Source: Chthoniobacteraceae bacterium (lineage in GTDB: Bacteria > Verrucomicrobiota > Verrucomicrobiia > Chthoniobacterales > Chthoniobacteraceae). Taken from it: a DNA stretch of 62,874 bases. The notes under the pieces are model-generated. The model was not told the DNA's origin. It ran no database searches and saw nothing but the letters and a program-made list of their open reading frames with translations. The stretch is taken from assembly GCA_947476045.1 (NCBI GenBank), contig CANJNZ010000020.1, positions 1 to 62,874 on the forward strand. Reading direction: 5' to 3'. Position 1 is the stretch's first letter. Every line of letters starts with the position of its first letter. Shown piece by piece: positions 14,810 to 26,660 of the stretch. The position numbers were made by a program, and so were the translations under genes.

Positions 14810-15853
14810 CTAAGGCTTCGCTGAAACTGCTGCCGTAAGTTGGGCGACGGTTTCGGTGAATTTCTTTGCGTCGAAAAGAGCGGGGGAGCGAATCGAGAGA
14901 TCGAGCGAGACGAGTGAGTCTTTTGCTCTCGGCATCGCTTTCGGATCAAGGCCCAGCACCAATGCCCGGAGCGCAGGAACGAGAGCCTCAGCCTGTGCAA
15001 AATCTTTAACCTGTCCTCCGAGTTCGGCGGTGCGGTCGAATTGCACGCGCGTTTTTTCGGCCGTCCATTTTGTTTTGCTTGCTGACTTTGCCAGCTTGTC
15101 GGCGGCGGTGTGGAGCGCTGCGGGCGCTGGATCGGCTGGCAGAAGTTCTGCGCCGCTGGCTGTTTCGCGAAGCACCCATTGAAGGGCGGCGATTCGCTCG
15201 GGCTGCGCGTTTCCTTTTTCGGAAAGCCAGCACAGTTCGCGGAGCAATGCGGCCTGGCTGGTGAGCCATGCTTTTGCGGATTGTCCTGCGTCGAAATTTT
15301 CCCAGTGCGCTGGCATCTCCACGAGTTGGCGGGCGAGTTCAAATCGCAGAGTGGGGTGGCCCGCTTTGGCTAGTCCCGCTGGCAAATTGCCGTGGCATCC
15401 TACGCAGGTGTTCGATTGCTGGTAGGCGGTGTCGAGGTCGCGCATTCCGGCGGCGACACGCTGCGTGTGCGTGATGTCTTTGCGTGTATGGAAGCGAATC
15501 CAGTTTTCCGCCGGGCCGTGGCACGCTTCGCAGGAGACCCCATGGTTCGGATTTTTTAAAGCATCCGCAATTTTTGCAGTGGCTGCGCTTTCCATGGGCG
15601 AATGGCAGACGGTGCATTGGTTGCTCTTCGCCGCTTCGCCCACGCCGAGAGCCTCGGCGATTCGTTTGCTGCGTTCGGAAATGAGTGTGCCGTAAGCGCG
15701 TGAGTGGGCGTCGGATTTTTGCCAGACGAGCACTTGGTCGTCACCCTTGCCACCGCCGTGACATCCGGAGGAAGCGCAGCTTTGCCAGCCGAGGAATCGG
15801 TCCCCCGCGCGAGCGGCTGTGAGGCAAATGAGGAGAGTAATGAAGCAACGCAC
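14810..15853 (-). CDS. Secreted multiheme c-type cytochrome, cytochrome c554-like
   Basis: 347 residues from a GTG that begins a signal peptide (VRCFITLLICLTAARA); a TTG at 15913 would add 20 polar residues. Heme-binding motifs from this start: an unusual CASSGCH (residues 26-32, CX4CH), CTVCH (80-84), CEACH (108-112) and CVGCH (150-154), so four covalent c-hemes. Additional His residues (for example DAHSRAY and KAGHPTLRFE) are candidate distal ligands. GVSCEACHGPAENW is typical of cytochrome c554/multiheme redox-partner proteins. The C-terminal half is helical and heme-free. It should carry electrons in the periplasm. It is divergent from the LysRS gene; the cytochrome-assembly gene hemX/ccsA follows LysRS. 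Confidence 0.85.
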   Translation of the reverse strand: MRCFITLLICLTAARAGDRFLGWQSCASSGCHGGGKGDDQVLVWQKSDAHSRAYGTLISERSKRIAEALGVGEAAKSNQCTVCHSPMESAATAKIADALKNPNHGVSCEACHGPAENWIRFHTRKDITHTQRVAAGMRDLDTAYQQSNTCVGCHGNLPAGLAKAGHPTLRFELARQLVEMPAHWENFDAGQSAKAWLTSQAALLRELCWLSEKGNAQPERIAALQWVLRETASGAELLPADPAPAALHTAADKLAKSASKTKWTAEKTRVQFDRTAELGGQVKDFAQAEALVPALRALVLGLDPKAMPRAKDSLVSLDLSIRSPALFDAKKFTETVAQLTAAVSAKP

Positions 15854-15971
15854 GCGTGGTGTATAAATGGATCGCTGGCTGTTCGCCAAGCCCGCAGGTG
15901 GATGGGAATCCAAGTGACGTTTTGTAGTGGGCGCTGGACTTTGTGTTGCGCGCGGCTATCTCACGCGCCCT

Positions 15972-17787: not shown

Positions 17788-18573
17788 ATGGAACGCTGGT
17801 TTCTCAACGCATCTACGCTCTGCTTTCTAGTCGGCTTTGCTTACACGATGTTCGCGCTCGGCGCGGGCGTGGCGCGGCCTTCGCGGTGGAATTTTTTGGT
17901 GATGCTCACCGGCTTCATTTGCCAGACTGAATATCTTCATCAGCGAGGCGAGATCGTCGGACGTTGTCCGGTCACGAATCTTTTCGAGGTGCTCGTGTTT
18001 TTAAGTTGGTCGGTTGTTCTGCTCTATTTTGTCGTGGGTGGTTCTTATCGGCTTTCACTGCTCGGGACATTTACCGCCCCGCTGGTGTTTTTGATTCAGA
18101 CGCTCGCGCAGCTTCTCCCATCGGCGTCGCTTCCAGCAGTGCGAAAAGTGAGCGCGGGATTCTGGGCGGAATTACACGCGGCGGTGTCGCTGATGGCATA
18201 CGGTGCGTTCGCGCTGGCGTGCGTCGCAGGCGTGATGTTTCTCGTGCAGGAGCGGTTGTTGAAACGACGGCAGTTGGGCTCGGTGTTTCAAAACTTGCCA
18301 CCCATCGCGACGCTGGTGGCTGCTACGCAGCGTGTGATGCTCGCGGGATTCATTCTTTTCACACTCGGGCTGGTGGGCGGATTTTTTGCAGGAAGCGCTC
18401 GCACTGCCATCGTGATGATGGCGGTGAGCGTGTGGCTGCCCTACGGGTTCATTCTTATTCTGAGGCAAACGCACCGTTATTCATCGCGGCGTTTTGCATG
18501 GCTCTCGGTCGTCGCATTCATCGTCGCGCTCACTTCGCTAGGAGCGCTCAGTTTCCTACACCTCAATCAGTGA
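17788..18573 (+). CDS. hemX: Cytochrome c assembly protein CcsA/HemX family
   Basis: 261 residues with about eight membrane helices. The segments FEVLVFLSWSVVLLYF and HAAVSLMAYGAFALACVAGVMFLVQE carry the conserved Trp and His of the CcsA/CcmC/HemX superfamily, which handles heme in the membrane for c-type cytochrome maturation. When it lies directly before hemA it is usually annotated HemX and is thought to influence GluTR level. ATG 17788 is chosen; an in-frame extension upstream overlaps lysS. Its TGA shares a base with the hemA ATG (TGATG), so translation is coupled. The nearby multiheme cytochrome fits a c-type cytochrome function. Confidence 0.86.
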   Translation: MERWFLNASTLCFLVGFAYTMFALGAGVARPSRWNFLVMLTGFICQTEYLHQRGEIVGRCPVTNLFEVLVFLSWSVVLLYFVVGGSYRLSLLGTFTAPLVFLIQTLAQLLPSASLPAVRKVSAGFWAELHAAVSLMAYGAFALACVAGVMFLVQERLLKRRQLGSVFQNLPPIATLVAATQRVMLAGFILFTLGLVGGFFAGSARTAIVMMAVSVWLPYGFILILRQTHRYSSRRFAWLSVVAFIVALTSLGALSFLHLNQ

Positions 18574-19607
18574 TGCACGTCGTCTGTCTTGGCCTCAGCC
18601 ATAAGAACGCGCCGGTCGAACTTCGTGAGAAGTTCGCCATCGGTGACGCGCATATTGGCGAGACTGCGGTGCAGATCGCGCGTGAACCCGAGATTGGCGA
18701 AGCGGTGATTGTCTCCACCTGCAATCGAGTAGAATACTACGTCGCCAGCGAAAATGCGGCGGCTGCGCTTGCGGTTTTGACTCAGCGAGTCGGTGATTCT
18801 ACCGCATTTCAGAAACTGCATGGAGCGGAGAGCATCAGGCACCTCTTCCGCGTCGTAAGTGGTCTGGAAAGCATGGTTCTCGGCGAGACGGAAATTCTCG
18901 GTCAGGTAAAAAAAGCTTATCTCACTGCGCAAACTGCGGGAGCGACGGCGCGACATCTGAACAAGCTTTTCCAGCGCGCGTTCAATGTCGCGAAGGAGGT
19001 GCGCACGAAGACGAGCATCACGCGCGGGGCGGTGAGTGTCGGAAGTGCCGCCGTGGATTTGGCGGAGAAGATTTTCGGAAAACTGGATCACTGCAACGTG
19101 ATGATTCTCGGCGCTGGCGAGACGGCGGAGATGACGGCGCGTGCGCTGCAATCGCGCGGCGCGAAGGCGATCTTCGTTTCCAACCGCACCTACGAGCGCG
19201 CGCATTCGCTGGCAGAACTGCTGGGTGGTCGCGCGATTCATTTCGATGCATGGGAGCGCGAATTTGATTCGCTGGATATTGTCATCGGCTCCACGGGAGC
19301 GCCCCATGCGGTGGTATCTCGCGATAAAATTGAACCGCTCATGCAACGGCGTGCTGACAGGCCTTTGTTTTGTATAGATCTCGCAGTGCCGCGCGATTTT
19401 GAGGCTGGGGTGAACGACCTCGATGGCGTCTATCTTTACGACATAGATGCGCTCCAGAGTATTGCTGATGCCTCGATGCAGGTCCGCCGTGCGGAACTGA
19501 CGCGCTGTGAGGAAATGATCGAGCGCCACGTCGCTGAATTTTCCGAATGGCTTGCGACACCTCGCCCGACAATGCCTATGAAAACACAAACGGAGGATGG
19601 AAAATGA
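18573..19607 (+). CDS. hemA: Glutamyl-tRNA reductase, short form
   Basis: 344 residues; catalyses reduction of glutamyl-tRNA to glutamate-1-semialdehyde, the first step of C5 haem synthesis. The catalytic cysteine lies in STCNRVEYY (Cys50). The tRNA-binding LRVASGLESMVLGE-type segment (RVVSGLESMVLGETEILGQV) and the NADPH domain (ILGAGETAEMTARAL) are intact, as is FCIDLAVPRDF. The protein ends about 50 residues into the linker helix (AELTRCEEMIERHVAEF), whereas most GluTRs continue to about 420-450 residues with a C-terminal dimerisation domain. That domain is absent, and hemC begins at the stop codon (ATGA overlap), so no missing exon-like piece follows. Confidence 0.93.
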   Translation: MHVVCLGLSHKNAPVELREKFAIGDAHIGETAVQIAREPEIGEAVIVSTCNRVEYYVASENAAAALAVLTQRVGDSTAFQKLHGAESIRHLFRVVSGLESMVLGETEILGQVKKAYLTAQTAGATARHLNKLFQRAFNVAKEVRTKTSITRGAVSVGSAAVDLAEKIFGKLDHCNVMILGAGETAEMTARALQSRGAKAIFVSNRTYERAHSLAELLGGRAIHFDAWEREFDSLDIVIGSTGAPHAVVSRDKIEPLMQRRADRPLFCIDLAVPRDFEAGVNDLDGVYLYDIDALQSIADASMQVRRAELTRCEEMIERHVAEFSEWLATPRPTMPMKTQTEDGK

Positions 19608-20521
19608 AGCGCCTTGTCATTGGGACACGAGGTTCAGCGCTCGCGCTGGCGCAGGTAAATTTGACAGAGGCTGCTCTCGCGAAGGTGTTGCCTGAACTTT
19701 CTACGGAGCGTCAGATTTTTATCACGCGAGGCGATCAAAAGCTCGATCTGAATCTACTCGTGAAAGGCGAAGGTGGTGGGAAGGGTTTATTCACACGCGA
19801 ACTGGAGGACGCGCTCATTTCGGGAGCAATTGATGTTGCCGTTCACAGCTTGAAAGATTTGCCGGGACACAATCCGCCGGGGCTTGAAATCGTTGCCGTT
19901 CTTGAACGTGCACCTACCGCCGATGTTCTCGTGGGGAAGGCTCCGGGTGGACTGGATGGTTTGCCGCAAGGCGCACGTGTGGGCACGAGTAGTATCCGTC
20001 GAGCGAGGCAACTCGCATGGTTGCGACCGGATTTACGAATCGAAGAATGGCGCGGCAATGTGCCGACGCGTTTGCGTAAATTGGGTGAACGCGAAGAAGT
20101 CGCGGCTACAGTGCTTGCCGAGGCTGGGTTGCGGCGACTGGGTTATGCGATGGAGGACGGTCGTTTGAAATGCGAGAGCGGTGAGTTTTTTGCGGCATCG
20201 CTCGCGGGACAATTATTACCGGCGATCGGCCAGGGCGCGGTCGCACTTCAAGCTCGTAGTGATCGTCCTGAAGTCATCGAAGTCTTGCGTGCGATCAATC
20301 ATGCGCCGACGATGTTCGCCATTCGCGCAGAGCGCGAAGTGCAGCGACTGCTCTCGGGTGACTGTTCCCTGCCGGTCGGTGTGCGCAGCGAAATGCGGGA
20401 AGGCGTGCTCTTGCTGCATGGAATTCTTTTCGGGCAGGAAGGCGAAGCGCCGAAGACGGCAGTCGCGGAGGGGAAAGAGCCAGAGTTGGTGGCGAGAGAA
20501 TTGGTTTCAAAACTACGGTAA
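19604..20521 (+). CDS. hemC: Hydroxymethylbilane synthase (porphobilinogen deaminase)
   Basis: 305 residues, normal length. It polymerises four porphobilinogens to hydroxymethylbilane on a dipyrromethane cofactor linked to the cysteine in SGDCSLPVG (Cys254). Conserved elements: GTRGSALALAQ (residues 7-17), the active-site HSLKDLP (81-87), GTSSIRRARQL and LPAIGQGA. It overlaps hemA by four bases. The product feeds the HemD half of the next gene. Confidence 0.97.
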   Translation: MKRLVIGTRGSALALAQVNLTEAALAKVLPELSTERQIFITRGDQKLDLNLLVKGEGGGKGLFTRELEDALISGAIDVAVHSLKDLPGHNPPGLEIVAVLERAPTADVLVGKAPGGLDGLPQGARVGTSSIRRARQLAWLRPDLRIEEWRGNVPTRLRKLGEREEVAATVLAEAGLRRLGYAMEDGRLKCESGEFFAASLAGQLLPAIGQGAVALQARSDRPEVIEVLRAINHAPTMFAIRAEREVQRLLSGDCSLPVGVRSEMREGVLLLHGILFGQEGEAPKTAVAEGKEPELVARELVSKLR

Positions 20522-20559
20522 GGCTTGCCGCACGGCGGGTGGCTTGCGCACGTTTGGAT

Positions 20560-22089
20560 ATGGATAAAACTGACAAAAAGAAGACGGGCATCTGTTACCT
20601 TGCAGGAGCGGGACCGGGCGATATCGGGCTCGTGACGCTGCGCGTGAAGCAGGTCGTCGAGCAGGCGGATGTGATCGTTTACGATGCGCTGTGCAATCCA
20701 GAGATTTTGCAATGGGCTCCGAAAGGCGCAGAAATCATCTATGCTGGAAAGCGGGCGAATCAACACGCGCTGAAGCAGGACGAAACGAATGCGCTGCTCG
20801 TGGAAAAAACACGCGAGGGAAAATGTGTGGTGAGACTGAAAGGAGGCGACCCGTTTTTGTTCGGGCGTGGCGGTGAGGAGGCAGAGGAACTGGCGAAGGC
20901 AAAATTGCATTTTGAGATCATCCCCGGAGTAACCTCTGCGATTGCTGCACCTGCGTATGCTGGTATACCGGTTACGCATCGTGAGCACACGGCGCAACTC
21001 ACTATTTTCACCGGCCACGAAGACCCGACGAAGCCCGAAAGCAAACTCGACTACGCGCAGCTTGCGGCGAATCCGGGCACAAAAATCATGCTCATGGGGG
21101 TGGAACGTTTGGGCATTATTGCTGGGGAATTAATCAAGCACGGCGCGCGTGCGGATTTGCCAGTAGCCTTGGTGCGATGGGGGACGACGGGGCGACAACA
21201 GACGCTGGTCGGGCGACTGGATGACATTGCGGCGAAGGTCGAGGCGGCAGGCTTCAAGGCACCGGCGGTTTGCGTCATCGGTGATGTGGTAAAATTGAGG
21301 GACAAGCTTTCGTGGTTTGATAAGCGACCACTTTCAGGAAAACGCATCGTCGTGACACGCACACGCAAGCAGGCGGGTGCTCTCACGTCGCGGCTGCGCG
21401 CGCTCGGGGCGGATGTTTTTGAAATACCGACGATCCGCATTGAGCCGCCTAAAGACATCCGAGAGTTCGGCGAGTCCGTCGCGCACGCCCACACTTACGA
21501 CTGGCTGGTTTTCACTTCGCCAAATGGAGTCGAGGCGTTCTTCGAGATGTTTTACCGCATCTATAAAGACGCGCGTGAAATCGGTGGCGTGCGCATCGCA
21601 GCCATCGGACCGGCGACAGCAGCAAAAGTGCGCGAATTTCACCTCGCAGTGGATTTGCAGCCCGAGGAATATGTCGCTGAGTCGGTGGTGGCGGCTTTCA
21701 AAAAAGACGGGTCCATTGAGAATTTGAAAATCCTCATCGCACGCGCCGAAACCGCGCGTGATGTGCTGCCACAGGAACTGACAAAGCTCGGCGCAATTGT
21801 AGACATCGCTGTGGTCTACCGCACGGTTCCCGAGACGGACGATGTGAGCGGAGGGCAGGCGCGTTTTCGAGAGGAAGGGGCGGATTTGGTCACATTTACG
21901 AGTTCCTCGACGGCGGAAAATTTCATGGCGTTGAAGCTACCATTGCCAGCCGGGCTCAAGACGGCGTCCATCGGGCCGGTGACATCAAAAACAATGAGGC
22001 AACTGGGACTCGCAGTGGATATAGAGGCAAAGCAGCACGATATTCAGGGGCTGGTTTCAGCGATTTGTATGTTCTTCGATAGGGTATGA
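20560..22089 (+). CDS. cobA-hemD: Uroporphyrinogen-III C-methyltransferase / uroporphyrinogen-III synthase fusion
   Basis: 509 residues, two enzymes in one chain. Residues ~8-255 are SUMT (CobA): LAGAGPGDIGLVTLR, VVRLKGGDPFLFGRGGEE and PGVTSAIAAPAYAGIPVTHR, which makes precorrin-2 for sirohaem and cobalamin. Residues ~265-505 are HemD, which closes hydroxymethylbilane to uroporphyrinogen III: VVTRTRKQAGALTSRLRALGA, WLVFTSPNGVEAFFE and LVTFTSSSTAENFM. ATG 20560 is preferred over a TTG seven codons earlier. The fusion follows hemC by 38 bases, so the operon supplies both the haem trunk and the sirohaem branch. Confidence 0.95.
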   Translation: MDKTDKKKTGICYLAGAGPGDIGLVTLRVKQVVEQADVIVYDALCNPEILQWAPKGAEIIYAGKRANQHALKQDETNALLVEKTREGKCVVRLKGGDPFLFGRGGEEAEELAKAKLHFEIIPGVTSAIAAPAYAGIPVTHREHTAQLTIFTGHEDPTKPESKLDYAQLAANPGTKIMLMGVERLGIIAGELIKHGARADLPVALVRWGTTGRQQTLVGRLDDIAAKVEAAGFKAPAVCVIGDVVKLRDKLSWFDKRPLSGKRIVVTRTRKQAGALTSRLRALGADVFEIPTIRIEPPKDIREFGESVAHAHTYDWLVFTSPNGVEAFFEMFYRIYKDAREIGGVRIAAIGPATAAKVREFHLAVDLQPEEYVAESVVAAFKKDGSIENLKILIARAETARDVLPQELTKLGAIVDIAVVYRTVPETDDVSGGQARFREEGADLVTFTSSSTAENFMALKLPLPAGLKTASIGPVTSKTMRQLGLAVDIEAKQHDIQGLVSAICMFFDRV

Positions 22090-22138: not shown

Positions 22139-22996
22139 ATGCCTGAAAAGTTAGACAGCACTGGAACAGATATTTCCCTTGAACTCGACGCAAAGGGGGA
22201 TGAGGTGGAGCATTCGGTCGACGCTTATCATCCGAAGCTTTCGGAGGTCATCCGGCACCCGGAAAAAGTCGTGGAGGACGAACACAAGGCAGTTCAAATC
22301 CTGCAATCGCTCCCGCATATGTTGCGCCCGCTTATTATTGGCGTTGAGGCCCTGACGAAGGTGCAAAACGACCACTCAAGCACGCTTAAAAAAATCGATA
22401 AATCTATAGCGTTGCAGGAAGCGCTGCCGCAGTTGCTCACCGATGCAAAACAGGCAATCGAGCAGCGTAACACAGTGAACAGGGCCATGTTTGAGGCTCT
22501 GCATGCAGAGTTGAAAGATTACAAGGACGGTTTCTTCATCGAGAATGTGTTGAGACCGATCATCCGCGATCTTATTTCTCTCTACGACGACACTTCGGAA
22601 ATTTATCGACAGATGAAGGCGAGCATCACTGATCAGGATGCTCGTGGTGGAGTTACGGGCGGAGGCGTGGTGCTCTTGGAAAGTGTCCAGCACATGGCCA
22701 CGAATCTTGAACACAACATCCATTTCATTTTGGAAGTGCTGGAGCGTATGGATGTCACGCACACCCCGACTAATACTGGAAAGCTCGATAAGCGCACACA
22801 GCGTGCTGTCGCGGTCGAAATTGCAGAGGATCCTGACCACGATCAAAATGTCGTCCGGATTTTAAAGCGTGGCTTTAAGTGCAAAGATCGTGTTATTCGC
22901 CCCGAAGAAGTCGTTATCCAAAAATGGAAGGAAGGATTTCTAGCCGCAATGAAGAATACGCAGACTTCAAATAAACCCCTAGCCAATCCGGCCTAA
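22139..22996 (+). CDS. GrpE-like nucleotide exchange factor with extended N-terminus
   Basis: 285 residues. The C-terminal ~60 residues (RAVAVEIAEDPDHDQNVV, then ILKRGFKCKDRVIRPEEVVI) match the GrpE beta-domain that opens the Hsp70 nucleotide cleft. The middle (residues ~95-200) is a long helical region with FFIENVLRPIIRDLISLYDD, comparable to the GrpE helix/four-helix bundle (LLPVLDNLERA-type). The N-terminal ~90 residues are acidic and family-specific. Canonical GrpE is about 190 residues and usually sits with dnaK/dnaJ heat-shock genes; this one precedes an atypical Hsp70 by 38 bases. It is therefore probably the dedicated exchange factor of that partner, not the housekeeping grpE. A promoter was not convincingly visible. 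Confidence 0.72.
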   Translation: MPEKLDSTGTDISLELDAKGDEVEHSVDAYHPKLSEVIRHPEKVVEDEHKAVQILQSLPHMLRPLIIGVEALTKVQNDHSSTLKKIDKSIALQEALPQLLTDAKQAIEQRNTVNRAMFEALHAELKDYKDGFFIENVLRPIIRDLISLYDDTSEIYRQMKASITDQDARGGVTGGGVVLLESVQHMATNLEHNIHFILEVLERMDVTHTPTNTGKLDKRTQRAVAVEIAEDPDHDQNVVRILKRGFKCKDRVIRPEEVVIQKWKEGFLAAMKNTQTSNKPLANPA

Positions 22997-23034
22997 AAAC
23001 TACAGTTCTAAAACCCGAGTTTTTTAAAAGTCAA

Positions 23035-24609
23035 ATGTCAGAACAGCCTACAAATCGAAAAGCATTAGGAATAGACCTTGGAACAACGTTCTGTGCCGTT
23101 GCGCACATTGATGCGTATGGCAAGCCGCAGATCATCCCCAACGCAGAAAGCGAGCGGATTACGCCCTCGGTAATTTTGTTCGACGGCACAAATGCCGTTG
23201 TGGGCTCGGTGGCAAAGCAGAACGCCGTGGCGGAACCGGACAAGATCGTTGATTTCGTGAAGCGTGAAATGGGCAAATCCAAGGCTCAATTCAGCAGGAC
23301 ATTTGGCGGCAAGGTGTATTCGGCAGAGGAACTCTCAGCGATTATCCTGCGGAAATTGAAGAGCGACGCGGAAAAATATCTCGGAGAGGAAGTGACGGAT
23401 GCGGTGATCACTGTTCCGGCATATTTTAACGACGCCGAGCGCACAGCTACGCTTCACGCGGGCCAGCTTGCGGGGCTGAATGTTTTACAGATCATCAACG
23501 AACCCACGTCCGCCGCACTCGCCTATGGCATGGACAAGTTGGATCAAGATCAGACGGTATTCGTTTTCGATCTTGGTGGCGGAACTTTTGACGTGACGAT
23601 TATGCGTATCGAGGGTCACCACATTCGCATGGTGGCGAGCAATGGCGATCACCGTCTCGGCGGCAAGGATTGGGATGATGTGATCGTGAACTGGGTGGCT
23701 GAGGAATTTGACAAGCAGCATGGGGAAAGTCCGCTTCTCGATCTGCAAAGCTATCAGGACCTCTACAACCGCGCACTGACCGCAAAAATTCAGCTTTCCA
23801 CCCGCTCACGCACGACGCTCGTGCACAATTATAACGGCAAGAGTGAAAAACTCGATTTGACGCGGGAAGACTTCGAAATGCGCACGAAGCATCTCATCGA
23901 AAAATGCAAAGCCATCTGCGAGATCGTGATGCAGGAAGCCGGGATGCAATGGGAGCAGATTGACCGGGTGCTGCTTACAGGCGGCATGACGCGTATGCCG
24001 TCGGTGAGGTCCATGGTTTTGGATATATCCAACCGTCCAATAGCCGAGGATGTAAGCCCGGATGAAGCTGTGGCCCTTGGCGCCGCCATTCAGGGCATGC
24101 TTGCCTTGTTGCATGAGGAGGACAAGACGGGTGAACACGTAATCACGCAGGAAGTGCGTGACCAATTTTCGGCGGTGGACGGCTCTTTGATTAAAGTCAC
24201 CAATATCACTACGCACACACTTGGTGTTGTGCTTTGGGATGATGGCAAAGTGGAGGAATACGTTTTTACGATGATTCCCAAAATGACACCGATTCCCGTG
24301 GAGGTTAAAAATAATTTCGGAACCGCCAAGGCGAACATGAAGAACGCAATAGTCCGCGTAGTGGAAGGGGAGAGCAGCATGCCGGGCGAATGCACGCCGC
24401 TGGGCGTTTGCGACATTGAACTGCCCCCGTTCCTGCCGAAAGGATCGCCGGTGGAACTGACCTATCACTATAATGAGAATCAGGTTCTGGAAGTTGTTGT
24501 CGAAGCCTATGGAAGAACGAGTCGTGTAGCGATTGCACGGAACACCGGGCTTTCTGAAAATGAACTCGAACTGGCAACCGCTGACCTGGCGCAACTGAAC
24601 ATTTCTTAG
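23035..24609 (+). CDS. Hsp70-family chaperone lacking the C-terminal lid
   Basis: 524 residues. The nucleotide-binding domain is intact: GIDLGTTFCAVAHID at the N-terminus, the phosphate-2 motif FDLGGGTFDVTIM and the adenosine motif LLTGGMTRMPSV, plus NEPTSAALAYGMD. A substrate-binding beta-sandwich follows (residues ~375-500; TLGVVLWDDGKVEEYVFTMI resembles DnaK but lacks an orthodox ETLGGV linker start). The chain stops about 25 residues later, so the ~110-residue alpha-helical lid of DnaK (about 640 residues) is absent. It should bind and hydrolyse ATP, but client binding must be weaker or specialised. It sits between a GrpE-like gene and a J-like/SUMF1 fusion. It is not the housekeeping DnaK by length or context. 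Confidence 0.88.
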   Translation: MSEQPTNRKALGIDLGTTFCAVAHIDAYGKPQIIPNAESERITPSVILFDGTNAVVGSVAKQNAVAEPDKIVDFVKREMGKSKAQFSRTFGGKVYSAEELSAIILRKLKSDAEKYLGEEVTDAVITVPAYFNDAERTATLHAGQLAGLNVLQIINEPTSAALAYGMDKLDQDQTVFVFDLGGGTFDVTIMRIEGHHIRMVASNGDHRLGGKDWDDVIVNWVAEEFDKQHGESPLLDLQSYQDLYNRALTAKIQLSTRSRTTLVHNYNGKSEKLDLTREDFEMRTKHLIEKCKAICEIVMQEAGMQWEQIDRVLLTGGMTRMPSVRSMVLDISNRPIAEDVSPDEAVALGAAIQGMLALLHEEDKTGEHVITQEVRDQFSAVDGSLIKVTNITTHTLGVVLWDDGKVEEYVFTMIPKMTPIPVEVKNNFGTAKANMKNAIVRVVEGESSMPGECTPLGVCDIELPPFLPKGSPVELTYHYNENQVLEVVVEAYGRTSRVAIARNTGLSENELELATADLAQLNIS

Positions 24610-24632
24610 CACTGATCAGTGCTGCTGCGGCC

Positions 24633-26363
24633 ATGGCACTACCAAATCCGCTGCCAGATAATCCGTTGAGGTGGGACGGCTGGAAGCTTTACAACTCACC
24701 AAATTACTACGACCGGCTTTGCCTCGATTTTACAAGCAACGCCAGTGCTCAGATCATTGAGGATAACTGTCGCCAACTTCTCGTCTGGTGGCAAAAAAAG
24801 CTTCCGCTAAAAAATCAGCCGAGCAACCCGATGGCGCAAATGCTTCGCCAGGGTCTCGATGAAGCTCCGCAGCTTCTTGTCGATGCGCGCACAAAACTTC
24901 TGGACCCTGTGGAGCGTGAGAAAATCGACGCGGCACTTCATCAGCAGATGATTGTTGGCCTGATGGAAGAATTCAAAAAGCTGCTCAGCTTTTCCATTTC
25001 CAATCAGTTACTGACCGAGGAAGGCGACGAGCGACTCTATATCGCAGGCGAAAAACTCGGACTGGAACGTGGGGATATGACGCCGGTGATAGACGCTGAA
25101 CTAGACCGCACAGGCGCGAAGCGATTTATTAAAGCGGCGTCGCCCGAACCTGCGCCGATAGTCGCAGTTTCTGCCGCGCAAAAGGAACAGGAATCTGGAA
25201 ATTCTCGCATCTATGCCCCTGCTGCTGCAAGCGCCAGTCCTCAGGATGAATTCCGTCGACTGTTGAGCATGTCGCGGCTGTGTATCGATGGGGAGGAAAT
25301 GACCGACGATCAGCGGGACGCCATGTGCAATATGGGGGAAAGTCTGGGTCTTACGGGGGGTGAGGCTGAAGATTTGATAGATGAATATCTTGAGAATGCC
25401 GCTGCGTCTCCGCCGCAACCGGCTGCTGCGTCCGCACGCACGACGGCTACCGCTGTTCGCGCACCCGCTCCAGTGCGTCCACCGCAAAATGATCTGAAAC
25501 CAGCCCAGACCAAGCCAGTCCCGAAAAATGTTACCCAGCCGCGTCCGGCTGCGACCGCGGTAAAAAAGGAGCCGGTGAAGGAAATTAATCTCACTCCTGC
25601 CGGGCGTGCCATCGAGCGGCAGAAATACGCCAAATTCACCAACTCCATCGGTGCTGAGATGCTCCTTGTGCCTAGTGGACAGTTTACTATGGGCAGCGAA
25701 GTTCCTGAATCGCTGTCGAACGAGCAGCCAGTCACTCCAGTGAAACTGTCTTGTTTCTACATGGCTCGTTTTCCAGTTACCAATGCGCAATATGAGCAGT
25801 TCGCTGCTGCCCATCGCAGTAAGCGAGCATCTTGGGCGGACGATAATCATCCAGTCATTTATGTGAGTTGGCTTGAAGCAGATGCCTTTTGTAAATGGCT
25901 GTCCGCGATCGATGGCCGGCGCTACCGCCTGCCCACCGAAGCAGAATGGGAGTATGCATCGCGAGGTGAGGACGGGCGTCAATATCCATGGGGTGAGCGC
26001 CTGAATGCAGGCAACCTTGCCAACTTCGCGGATGTTCGCACGAATTTCGTTTGGCGAGATCCGGCGGTTGACGATGGCTACGCTGAGACATCGCCCGTTG
26101 GCTCCTACGCACTCGGTGCCAGTCCGTTTGGTATCGAAGACATGGCTGGTAATGTCTTCGAGTGGTGCATGGACTGGTATGATGTTTATAAAGGCAAGGA
26201 GGTCATTAATCCCTGCAATTCTAAATTCGGCCAAAAGCGTGTGTATCGCGGCGGATCGTGGAGGTCGCGAGCAGCCAGTCTGCGTTCGTGCTGTCGAAAT
26301 TCCAACCTCCCAGGCTATCTCTCAAGCGACGTCAGTTTCCGTGTCGTGTGCGAATGCGAGTAA
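24633..26363 (+). CDS. Fusion of degenerate J-like region, two TerB-like helical repeats and SUMF1-fold domain
   Basis: 576 residues. N-terminus (about 18-95): NSPNYYDRLCLD..., then QLLVWWQKKLPLK and LVDARTKLLDPVEREKID. This resembles a J-domain in order (Tyr-rich helix I, basic helix II, DPxxRxxYD-like helix IV), but the HPD tripeptide is missing. Two similar helical units follow: FSISNQLLTEEGDERL...GEKLGL (~115-150) and SRLCIDGEEMTDDQRD...GESLGL (~210-250), reminiscent of TerB/DUF533-like repeats. A Pro/Ala linker leads to a SUMF1/FGE-fold domain (~345-576): MLLVPSGQFTMGSE, RLPTEAEWEYASRGEDG and VYRGGSWRSRAAS. The FGE catalytic cysteine pair after GGS is replaced by Ser and Leu, so sulfatase activation is unlikely. 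It follows the Hsp70 gene by 23 bases. Confidence 0.8.
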   Translation: MALPNPLPDNPLRWDGWKLYNSPNYYDRLCLDFTSNASAQIIEDNCRQLLVWWQKKLPLKNQPSNPMAQMLRQGLDEAPQLLVDARTKLLDPVEREKIDAALHQQMIVGLMEEFKKLLSFSISNQLLTEEGDERLYIAGEKLGLERGDMTPVIDAELDRTGAKRFIKAASPEPAPIVAVSAAQKEQESGNSRIYAPAAASASPQDEFRRLLSMSRLCIDGEEMTDDQRDAMCNMGESLGLTGGEAEDLIDEYLENAAASPPQPAAASARTTATAVRAPAPVRPPQNDLKPAQTKPVPKNVTQPRPAATAVKKEPVKEINLTPAGRAIERQKYAKFTNSIGAEMLLVPSGQFTMGSEVPESLSNEQPVTPVKLSCFYMARFPVTNAQYEQFAAAHRSKRASWADDNHPVIYVSWLEADAFCKWLSAIDGRRYRLPTEAEWEYASRGEDGRQYPWGERLNAGNLANFADVRTNFVWRDPAVDDGYAETSPVGSYALGASPFGIEDMAGNVFEWCMDWYDVYKGKEVINPCNSKFGQKRVYRGGSWRSRAASLRSCCRNSNLPGYLSSDVSFRVVCECE

Positions 26364-26390
26364 TCGGTGTGCGATCCCGGGAAAAAGAAA

Positions 26391-26414
26391 CCCGCCGACT
26401 TTGCAATCGGCGGG
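26391..26414 (-). terminator. Intrinsic terminator downstream of rpsU
   Basis: An eight-base perfect stem CCCGCCGA / TCGGCGGG around CTTTGCAA, followed on the minus strand by TTTCTTTTTCCC. It lies 42 bases beyond the rpsU stop. The plus-strand side lacks a T-run, so it is mainly a minus-strand signal. Confidence 0.8.
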
Positions 26415-26456
26415 CTTGTGGAATAAAACGGTAATTCACCGTAAAGGACGGTGTCC

Positions 26457-26660
26457 TTACTGGGCAAAATTGAAGCGTTGCTTCTTGGCCTTCGCGCGTT
26501 TCGCGCTGGCTTTTGCTTTGCGACGCGTCTTTTGCGTCGGCGTCTCGAAGGCGCGCAGACGGCGCACTTCATCCATGACCCCCTCGGTTTCGAGTTTGCT
26601 TTTCAGGCGCTTGATGGCGCGATCAATGGGTTCTCCTTTTCGGACTTGGACTTCTGGCAT
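26457..26660 (-). CDS. rpsU: 30S ribosomal protein S21
   Basis: 67 residues: PEVQVRKGEPIDRAIKRLKSKLETEGVMDEVRRLRAFETP is typical of bS21, and the C-terminus is a basic helix (RRKAKASAKRAKAKKQR). The protein sits near the 3' end of 16S rRNA and takes part in mRNA recognition. Unlike most genes here it has a clear purine-rich ribosome binding site (AAGGAGGGAAACC, read on the minus strand) just before ATG 26660. It is monocistronic with its own terminator. Confidence 0.96.
   Translation of the reverse strand: MPEVQVRKGEPIDRAIKRLKSKLETEGVMDEVRRLRAFETPTQKTRRKAKASAKRAKAKKQRFNFAQ

Follow-up and report, generated by a model that had tools for sequence, protein, structure and literature searches.

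A lidless Hsp70 and its putative HPD-less J-like partner with altered docking residues, usually encoded beside heme genes in one order of Verrucomicrobiota

Contig CANJNZ010000020.1 of a Chthoniobacteraceae bacterium (assembly GCA_947476045.1; phylum Verrucomicrobiota, order Chthoniobacterales) was analysed over positions 1 to 62,874, hereafter called the window. It contains a three-gene cassette for a GrpE-like protein, an Hsp70 without the helical lid, and a fusion protein with J-like and SUMF1 domains. Two findings go beyond the initial annotation of this DNA. Judged by alignment, the docking face between Hsp70 and J domain is rewritten on both partners, and the cassette usually adjoins heme biosynthesis genes, a conserved linkage that the annotation had missed. 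On balance, we consider it probable that the three genes encode a dedicated Hsp70 machine that is insulated against cross-talk with the housekeeping DnaK/DnaJ/GrpE and probably serves tetrapyrrole synthesis. Locus counts refer to 40 fetched loci, 39 of which were testable for the upstream gene (one contig ends too early). The cassette has the following features.

22139..22996, + strand: GrpE-like nucleotide exchange factor with a coiled N-terminal part and a GrpE head domain at about residues 209-262 (Pfam).
23035..24609, + strand: lidless Hsp70 with ATPase domain, linker and beta-sandwich, stopping where the first lid helix starts (Pfam).
24633..26363, + strand: fusion protein of J-like domain, two helical repeats, Pro/Ala linker and SUMF1 domain, directly 3' of the Hsp70 gene in 40/40 loci.
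24666..24968, + strand: J-like domain, residues 12-112, no HPD (hhalign against 33 J domains).
24954..25127, + strand: helical repeat 1, residues 108-165, faintly TerB-like, homologous to repeat 2 (hhalign).
25239..25418, + strand: helical repeat 2, residues 203-262, homologous to repeat 1, no TerB signal.
25638..26360, + strand: SUMF1/FGE domain, C-type-lectin-like, lacking the cysteine pair of FGE (Pfam; alignment to human FGE).

The three open reading frames (22139-22996, 23035-24609 and 24633-26363; 285, 524 and 576 amino acids) lie on the same strand with gaps of 38 and 23 bases, and the initial coordinates were exact. The first gene product matched GrpE above the curated Pfam cut-off (46.2 versus 25.8 bits, residues 85-262). 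The second matched Hsp70 with 401 bits over model positions 2-509 of 599; it has the ATPase domain and the beta-sandwich, and the end of the match at position 509 indicates the absence of a DnaK-type helical lid. In most full-length orthologues the Hsp70 open frame was about 520-560 amino acids long. Residues 341-572 of the fusion protein matched the FGE-sulfatase family (181 bits), and FGE structures matched its SUMF1 fold at 2e-31. In an alignment to human FGE, the copper cysteines Cys336 and Cys341 are replaced by Ser and by a gap or Ala, and the family consensus also lacks the pair. An active FGE enzyme was rejected on these grounds, and the absence of the cysteines makes a binding role for the SUMF1 domain more likely than an oxidase role. 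The two helical repeats are homologues: hhalign aligned them with probability 91 (E = 1e-6), against 1 for the reversed control. The initial annotation had read the main features from the letters: a GrpE-like first gene, an Hsp70 with its ATPase part but no lid, two similar repeats and a SUMF1 fold without the cysteine pair. Its label 'TerB-like' fared less well. Repeat 1 scored 20.4 against TerB (maximum of shuffles 16.2) but repeat 2 did not exceed its shuffles, and the TerB profile matched 4 of 40 fusion proteins with a best E of 0.056. When the J-like region and the repeats were searched against Pfam, NCBIfam and the PDB, nothing exceeded the thresholds. Elsewhere, at locus L222 (G427:C206), a TerB-type domain precedes an HPD-bearing J domain in one frame, as in DjlA; that genome carries the cassette as well.

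The same genome encodes an ordinary GrpE-DnaJ pair (contig C2), a DnaK of 648 residues, a second Hsp70 of 598 residues and five J proteins above the Pfam cut-off. Since the normal GrpE-DnaJ pair and DnaK are kept, the cassette is an addition to the housekeeping chaperone set and not that set itself.

The N-terminal domain of the fusion protein appears to be J-like. A profile of residues 12-112 from 40 sequences scored 27.0 over 71 columns against 33 true J domains of related bacteria, compared with about 10 for the reversed profile and maxima of 19.0 for 300 column shuffles and 17.7 for 130 decoy tiles. The match was co-linear, beginning at the helix I motif YYxxL and ending at the helix IV motif LLDPxxRxxxD, which supports J homology. 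No HPD motif was found in residues 1-112 of any of the 40 orthologues. At its place all 40 carry a nearly invariant segment, WWQKKLPLK.QP.NP..Q (residues 52-69), and the loop has therefore been conserved and has not decayed. Helix II, basic in true J domains (mean net charge +2.9), has a mean net charge of -1.5 in the cassette proteins, and the position of its Arg/Lys22 is Glu43 in 40/40. Of the initial description, J-domain spacing but no HPD, the missing HPD stands and the J resemblance is supported by the profile scores, but not by a Pfam DnaJ match.

The Hsp70 has changed at the corresponding contacts. The literature on structures and simulations (PMC8215388, PMC13012618, PMC7289447) supplied the contact and latch positions, which were compared, via MAFFT alignments, between 45 non-redundant full-length orthologues and 25-26 lid-bearing DnaKs of the phylum. 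In DnaK, Asp35 of the J-domain HPD draws Arg167 off the linker residue Asp393, which starts domain release; changes at Arg167 or its partners raise basal ATPase activity and blunt J stimulation (PMC7289447). The corresponding positions in the window are these.

23488..23490, + strand: codon of Gln152, at the DnaK Arg167 position (HPD contact), where the Arg is lost (alignment).
23605..23607, + strand: codon of Arg191, at the DnaK Glu206 position (J helix II contact), with reversed charge (alignment).
24187..24204, + strand: interdomain linker LIKVTN, aligned to DnaK VLLLD(393), with LLL replaced by KVT and Asp393 by Asn390 (alignment).

At the Arg167 position, 40/45 orthologues have Gln, 4/45 have Ser, Asn or Lys and one has Arg, whereas Arg occupies it in 25/25 lid-bearing DnaKs. 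The Glu206 position is Arg or Lys in 42/45 orthologues and Glu in 24/25 DnaKs; the Asp393 position is Asn in 42/45 and Asp in 26/26. The linker LLL has mostly become [K/Q/R]V[T/R], so the cassette Hsp70 has neither the Arg167 nor the LLLD linker of the DnaK type. Catalytic and structural positions (Lys70, Pro143, Asp148, Thr199, Glu171, Pro419) are kept. As aligned, both proteins thus show changes in the HPD-Arg167-Asp393 latch and in the charged contact of helix II. The one orthologue with Arg167 is a stray copy (L123) that has no fusion gene alongside, although this is one case only. Two tandem lidless Hsp70s with a GrpE-like gene were also seen at L217:345-4187 (G320), where the J partner lies off the contig. 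Both keep Arg167 and Asp393, so lidlessness alone does not explain the interface change, and their partner should have an HPD. Together with the fusion-less L123, this pair suggests that pairing rather than lidlessness is the cause.

The genomes searched in full, 197 from the order and 289 from the phylum, were all Verrucomicrobiota, and about 281 of the sampled genomes lay outside the order; Planctomycetota and other phyla were covered by a single scan, run with the GrpE-like protein, that can pick up just close relatives. Clear Hsp70 orthologues (63-95% identity) occurred in 69 of the order's 197 genomes and in none of the approximately 281 sampled outside it, where the next matches were about 35-48% identical. 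Within this sample, the cassette is confined to one order of the Verrucomicrobiota. The fusion gene lay directly downstream of the Hsp70 gene in all 40 loci, and the GrpE-like gene lay just upstream, completing the triplet, in 33/39. This neighbourhood check agrees with the initial idea of a self-contained cassette. Gaps were mostly a few tens of bases, and several loci had stop-start overlaps of 1-4 bases, which is operon-like. Between families the Hsp70s were mostly 70-95% identical and more conserved than HemC and HemD; the SUMF1 domains of the 40 loci were about 53-80% identical to that of the window and not hypervariable. A tblastn search of plasmids for the cassette found none. Weak GrpE matches outside the order that resembled cassettes (L158, L159) are interpreted as housekeeping GrpE, since ordinary DnaJ genes are present there. 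The solitary second lidless Hsp70 with Arg at the 167 position (L123:4435-6021, in G439) lies among response-regulator genes, with neither a GrpE-like nor a fusion gene.

Upstream, the cassette is preceded by three heme biosynthesis genes.

18573..19607, + strand: hemA, glutamyl-tRNA reductase (Pfam GlutR_N), in 22/40 fetched loci.
19547..20521, + strand: hemC, porphobilinogen deaminase (Pfam), in 23/40 fetched loci.
20539..22089, + strand: CobA-HemD fusion of uroporphyrinogen methylase and uroporphyrinogen-III synthase (Pfam), 49 bases 5' of the grpE-like gene.

The hemD gene adjoined the cassette on the same strand, usually together with hemA and hemC, in 54 of 62 resolvable genomes; positions were compared by hand, 2 of the 54 being split by contig ends and 7 further genomes not being judgeable. 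In genus g155 the Hsp70 gene itself lies directly 3' of hemD. HemC proteins of different families were only 41-50% identical, yet the gene order was kept, and it has therefore outlasted much divergence. The conserved order does not extend past the fusion gene: what came next, in most of 15 loci examined, was an unrelated gene on the opposite strand. These arrangements support an operon of heme genes and cassette. No CIRCE heat-shock operator was found in the window, and promoter and terminator scans gave no more matches than chance. Directly after the cassette (26388-26660) lie a GC-rich hairpin of 13 pairs and a small opposite-strand gene for a bS21-like protein, followed by an AcrB-type pump gene and a HlyD gene. 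Further upstream (14810-15913), an opposite-strand gene for a cytochrome c554-type protein just precedes the gene for the class I lysyl-tRNA synthetase.

From the gene content, gene order, conservation and residue changes on both partners, we infer a docking geometry, ATPase behaviour, insulation and client as follows. The fusion protein would be the private J-type partner and client adaptor of the lidless Hsp70, on which the GrpE-like protein would exchange nucleotide. Its J-like domain would dock at the usual J site through the rewritten interface, while the helical repeats and the SUMF1 fold may recruit a client or ligand. HPD would no longer be needed for docking, and no cross-talk between the pair and DnaK/DnaJ would be expected, because Asp35, Arg167 and Asp393 are all replaced and the helix II charge contact is reversed. 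With Arg167 and Asp393 both neutralised, nothing would be left for Asp35 to do, and the absence of HPD from the partner of such an Hsp70 need not mean that function is absent. The latch of the Hsp70 may be eased, and hydrolysis would then be set by its own J-like partner, the client and the GrpE-like protein, with ordinary DnaJ fitting poorly. Because the lid is absent, contacts with clients would be short, which suits help with conformation or assembly better than prolonged holding. As the cassette genes end the hemA-hemC-hemD cluster, a tetrapyrrole synthesis enzyme is the likeliest client. Our first guess is glutamyl-tRNA reductase (HemA), because it stands at the entry to the pathway and is regulated and unstable.

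Several observations weigh against this proposal. The J assignment comes from profile comparison and motif context: Pfam DnaJ matched residues 1-112 in 0/40 orthologues, a profile of these residues retrieved no J protein from solved structures, and no J-fold was confidently predicted. Two AlphaFold runs (the window and L028, two sequences only) placed helices at J-like positions with a pLDDT of 49-54, and Foldseek matched the low-confidence model to no solved structure. The alignment of the conserved loop is ambiguous, with QKK or LPL opposite HPD. The GrpE-like neighbour is absent in genus g155 (five loci) and in L121. The cassette lies away from hemD, which is elsewhere or was not found, in 8/62 genomes, and many genomes of the order carry hemD without the cassette; heme synthesis therefore does not require it. 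The identity of the client is read from gene linkage, that is, from guilt by association.

Among named systems, the closest are the GAP1-N2 DO-GTPase systems of Kaur et al. 2020 (eLife 9:e52696, PMC7159879), which include GrpE, HSP70 and DnaJ fused to FNIII repeats. The initial statement that no named system has this composition was thus nearly right, although the HSP70 theme of those systems comes close: in the parts of that paper drawn on here, it shares GrpE, HSP70, sometimes an HSP70 without the peptide-binding domain, and a multi-domain DnaJ protein, and the planctomycete systems share SUMF1-type (FGS) domains. The same parts make no mention of a loss of HPD or Arg167. In contrast to these systems, the cassette has no GTPase, GAP1 or FNIII, has one Hsp70 with an intact beta-sandwich and no lid, has SUMF1 fused to the J-like protein, evolves slowly and is usually fixed after heme genes. 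With heme genes on its upstream side and, downstream, unrelated genes that lie mostly on the opposite strand, it falls outside the GAP1-N2 group.

Loci of GAP1-N2 type, or close to it, occur in the same phylum (L154, L156, L157, L160, L126; smaller forms L127, L155). L154:4894-16730 (G174), L156:1905-10037 (G021), L157 and L160 carry a GrpE-like gene, at least two lidless Hsp70s and a large HPD-less J-like/zinc-ribbon protein, with a zinc-ribbon GTPase and VirD4-like genes nearby, and are apparently GAP1-N2-type conflict systems. L126:1-8424 (G218) has a GrpE-like protein, a lidless Hsp70, an apparent Hsp70-vWA fusion and a J-like/zinc-ribbon/FNIII-like protein, with a NACHT-like NTPase upstream. 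The compact L127:2-3338 (G274) has a GrpE-like protein, a lidless Hsp70 with Asp at the Arg167 position, a vWA protein and a free-standing HPD-less J-like protein of 106 residues. The J-like regions of these loci lack HPD and have a tryptophan near the tyrosine position. In line with the proposed pairing, most of their lidless Hsp70s lack Arg167 (L126, L127 and L154-L157). Single-sequence comparisons of the J-like regions of L126, L127 and L154-L157 were mostly too weak to prove homology, and only L156, L157 and L160 approached the J profile (probability about 19); position, the shared tryptophan and gene context suggest kinship with the cassette domain. In an Hsp70 tree the cassette orthologues formed one clade (100/100), which most GAP1-N2-type Hsp70s adjoined weakly (75/81). 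Common descent of the whole module is possible, and the cassette looks like a domesticated, vertically kept form without GTPase/GAP1 or variable effectors.

These likenesses raise the alternative that the cassette is a conflict, defence or signalling module like the GAP1-N2 systems, with SUMF1 as a ligand-binding effector and the Hsp70 machine as a threshold device. The described fusions and SUMF1-type effectors in planctomycetes, the HPD-less loci L154, L156 and L126 and the weak tree affinity all speak for it, but we regard it as improbable: none of the genes flanking the cassette was recognised as coding for a GTPase, GAP1, FNIII or effector, the PADLOC library of defence genes gave no convincing match, and an Hsp70 conserved above HemC and HemD, a SUMF1 domain that is not hypervariable and a mostly fixed context inherited along with heme genes do not fit it. 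The heme link could, on the other hand, be fortuitous, a by-product of inherited gene order, with the cassette acting as a general stress chaperone. We give this reading a substantial chance, somewhat short of even, in view of the eight genomes with the cassette away from hemD and the many with hemD only; its difficulties are an order that persists between families of such divergent HemC and ends at the fusion gene, and the window's lack of a CIRCE heat-shock element.

Two further alternatives concern the J-like region. The initial annotation proposed that it docks on the Hsp70 without stimulating ATP hydrolysis. Such a model resembles Pam16/Tim16, in which a J-like fold without HPD also works with an Hsp70. 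The absence of HPD in 40/40 and the effect of Arg167 changes on DnaK favour such a tether, but the fusion protein is the cassette's sole J-type protein and the HPD-contact residues of the Hsp70 have changed in step with it, a pattern as compatible with a functional contact that has been re-coded as with a passive one. Pam16, moreover, acts through an HPD-bearing partner, which it needs, and none is encoded in the cassette; we consider the tether rather unlikely. That the region is an unrelated helical adaptor and the Hsp70 uses the cell's ordinary J proteins seems improbable. The missing Pfam and structural matches would agree with it, but the J profile score far exceeds shuffles and decoys over 71 co-linear columns that include both conserved motifs, and this Hsp70 has lost, or reversed in charge, the residues that ordinary J proteins contact, which should make ordinary HPD proteins a poor fit.

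A dedicated, insulated Hsp70 machine has partial parallels among known chaperones. With housekeeping DnaK-DnaJ-GrpE the cassette shares the three roles, the ATPase domain and beta-sandwich and the GrpE head domain, but it lacks lid and HPD, and its J docking face and linker are re-coded. HscA-HscB and HscC-DjlB/DjlC likewise pair a specialised Hsp70 with its own J partner, and the genes for HscA/HscB lie with those of the Fe-S pathway that the two proteins serve. The cassette differs from them in lacking HPD, in bringing an exchange factor of its own together with a SUMF1 adaptor, and in sitting with tetrapyrrole genes.

In the Hsp70 cycle, HPD and its partner Arg167 are regarded as close to universal and as indispensable. 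A similar joint loss of the two recurs with the lidless Hsp70s of GTPase-type systems. In the cassette, the vertically inherited joint loss and the reversed interface charges amount to a natural double-mutant cycle for J triggering and pair specificity. We tentatively suggest, while holding it somewhat less than even, that the cassette is a natural Hsp70-J pair working with the HPD/Arg167/Asp393 latch dismantled on both sides, through a re-coded, orthogonal interface, and dedicated to tetrapyrrole synthesis. A tetrapyrrole-dedicated Hsp70 machine would, as far as we know, be the first of its kind. The linkage to heme genes gives this Hsp70 machine a checkable job and suggests a dedicated but unproven role there.

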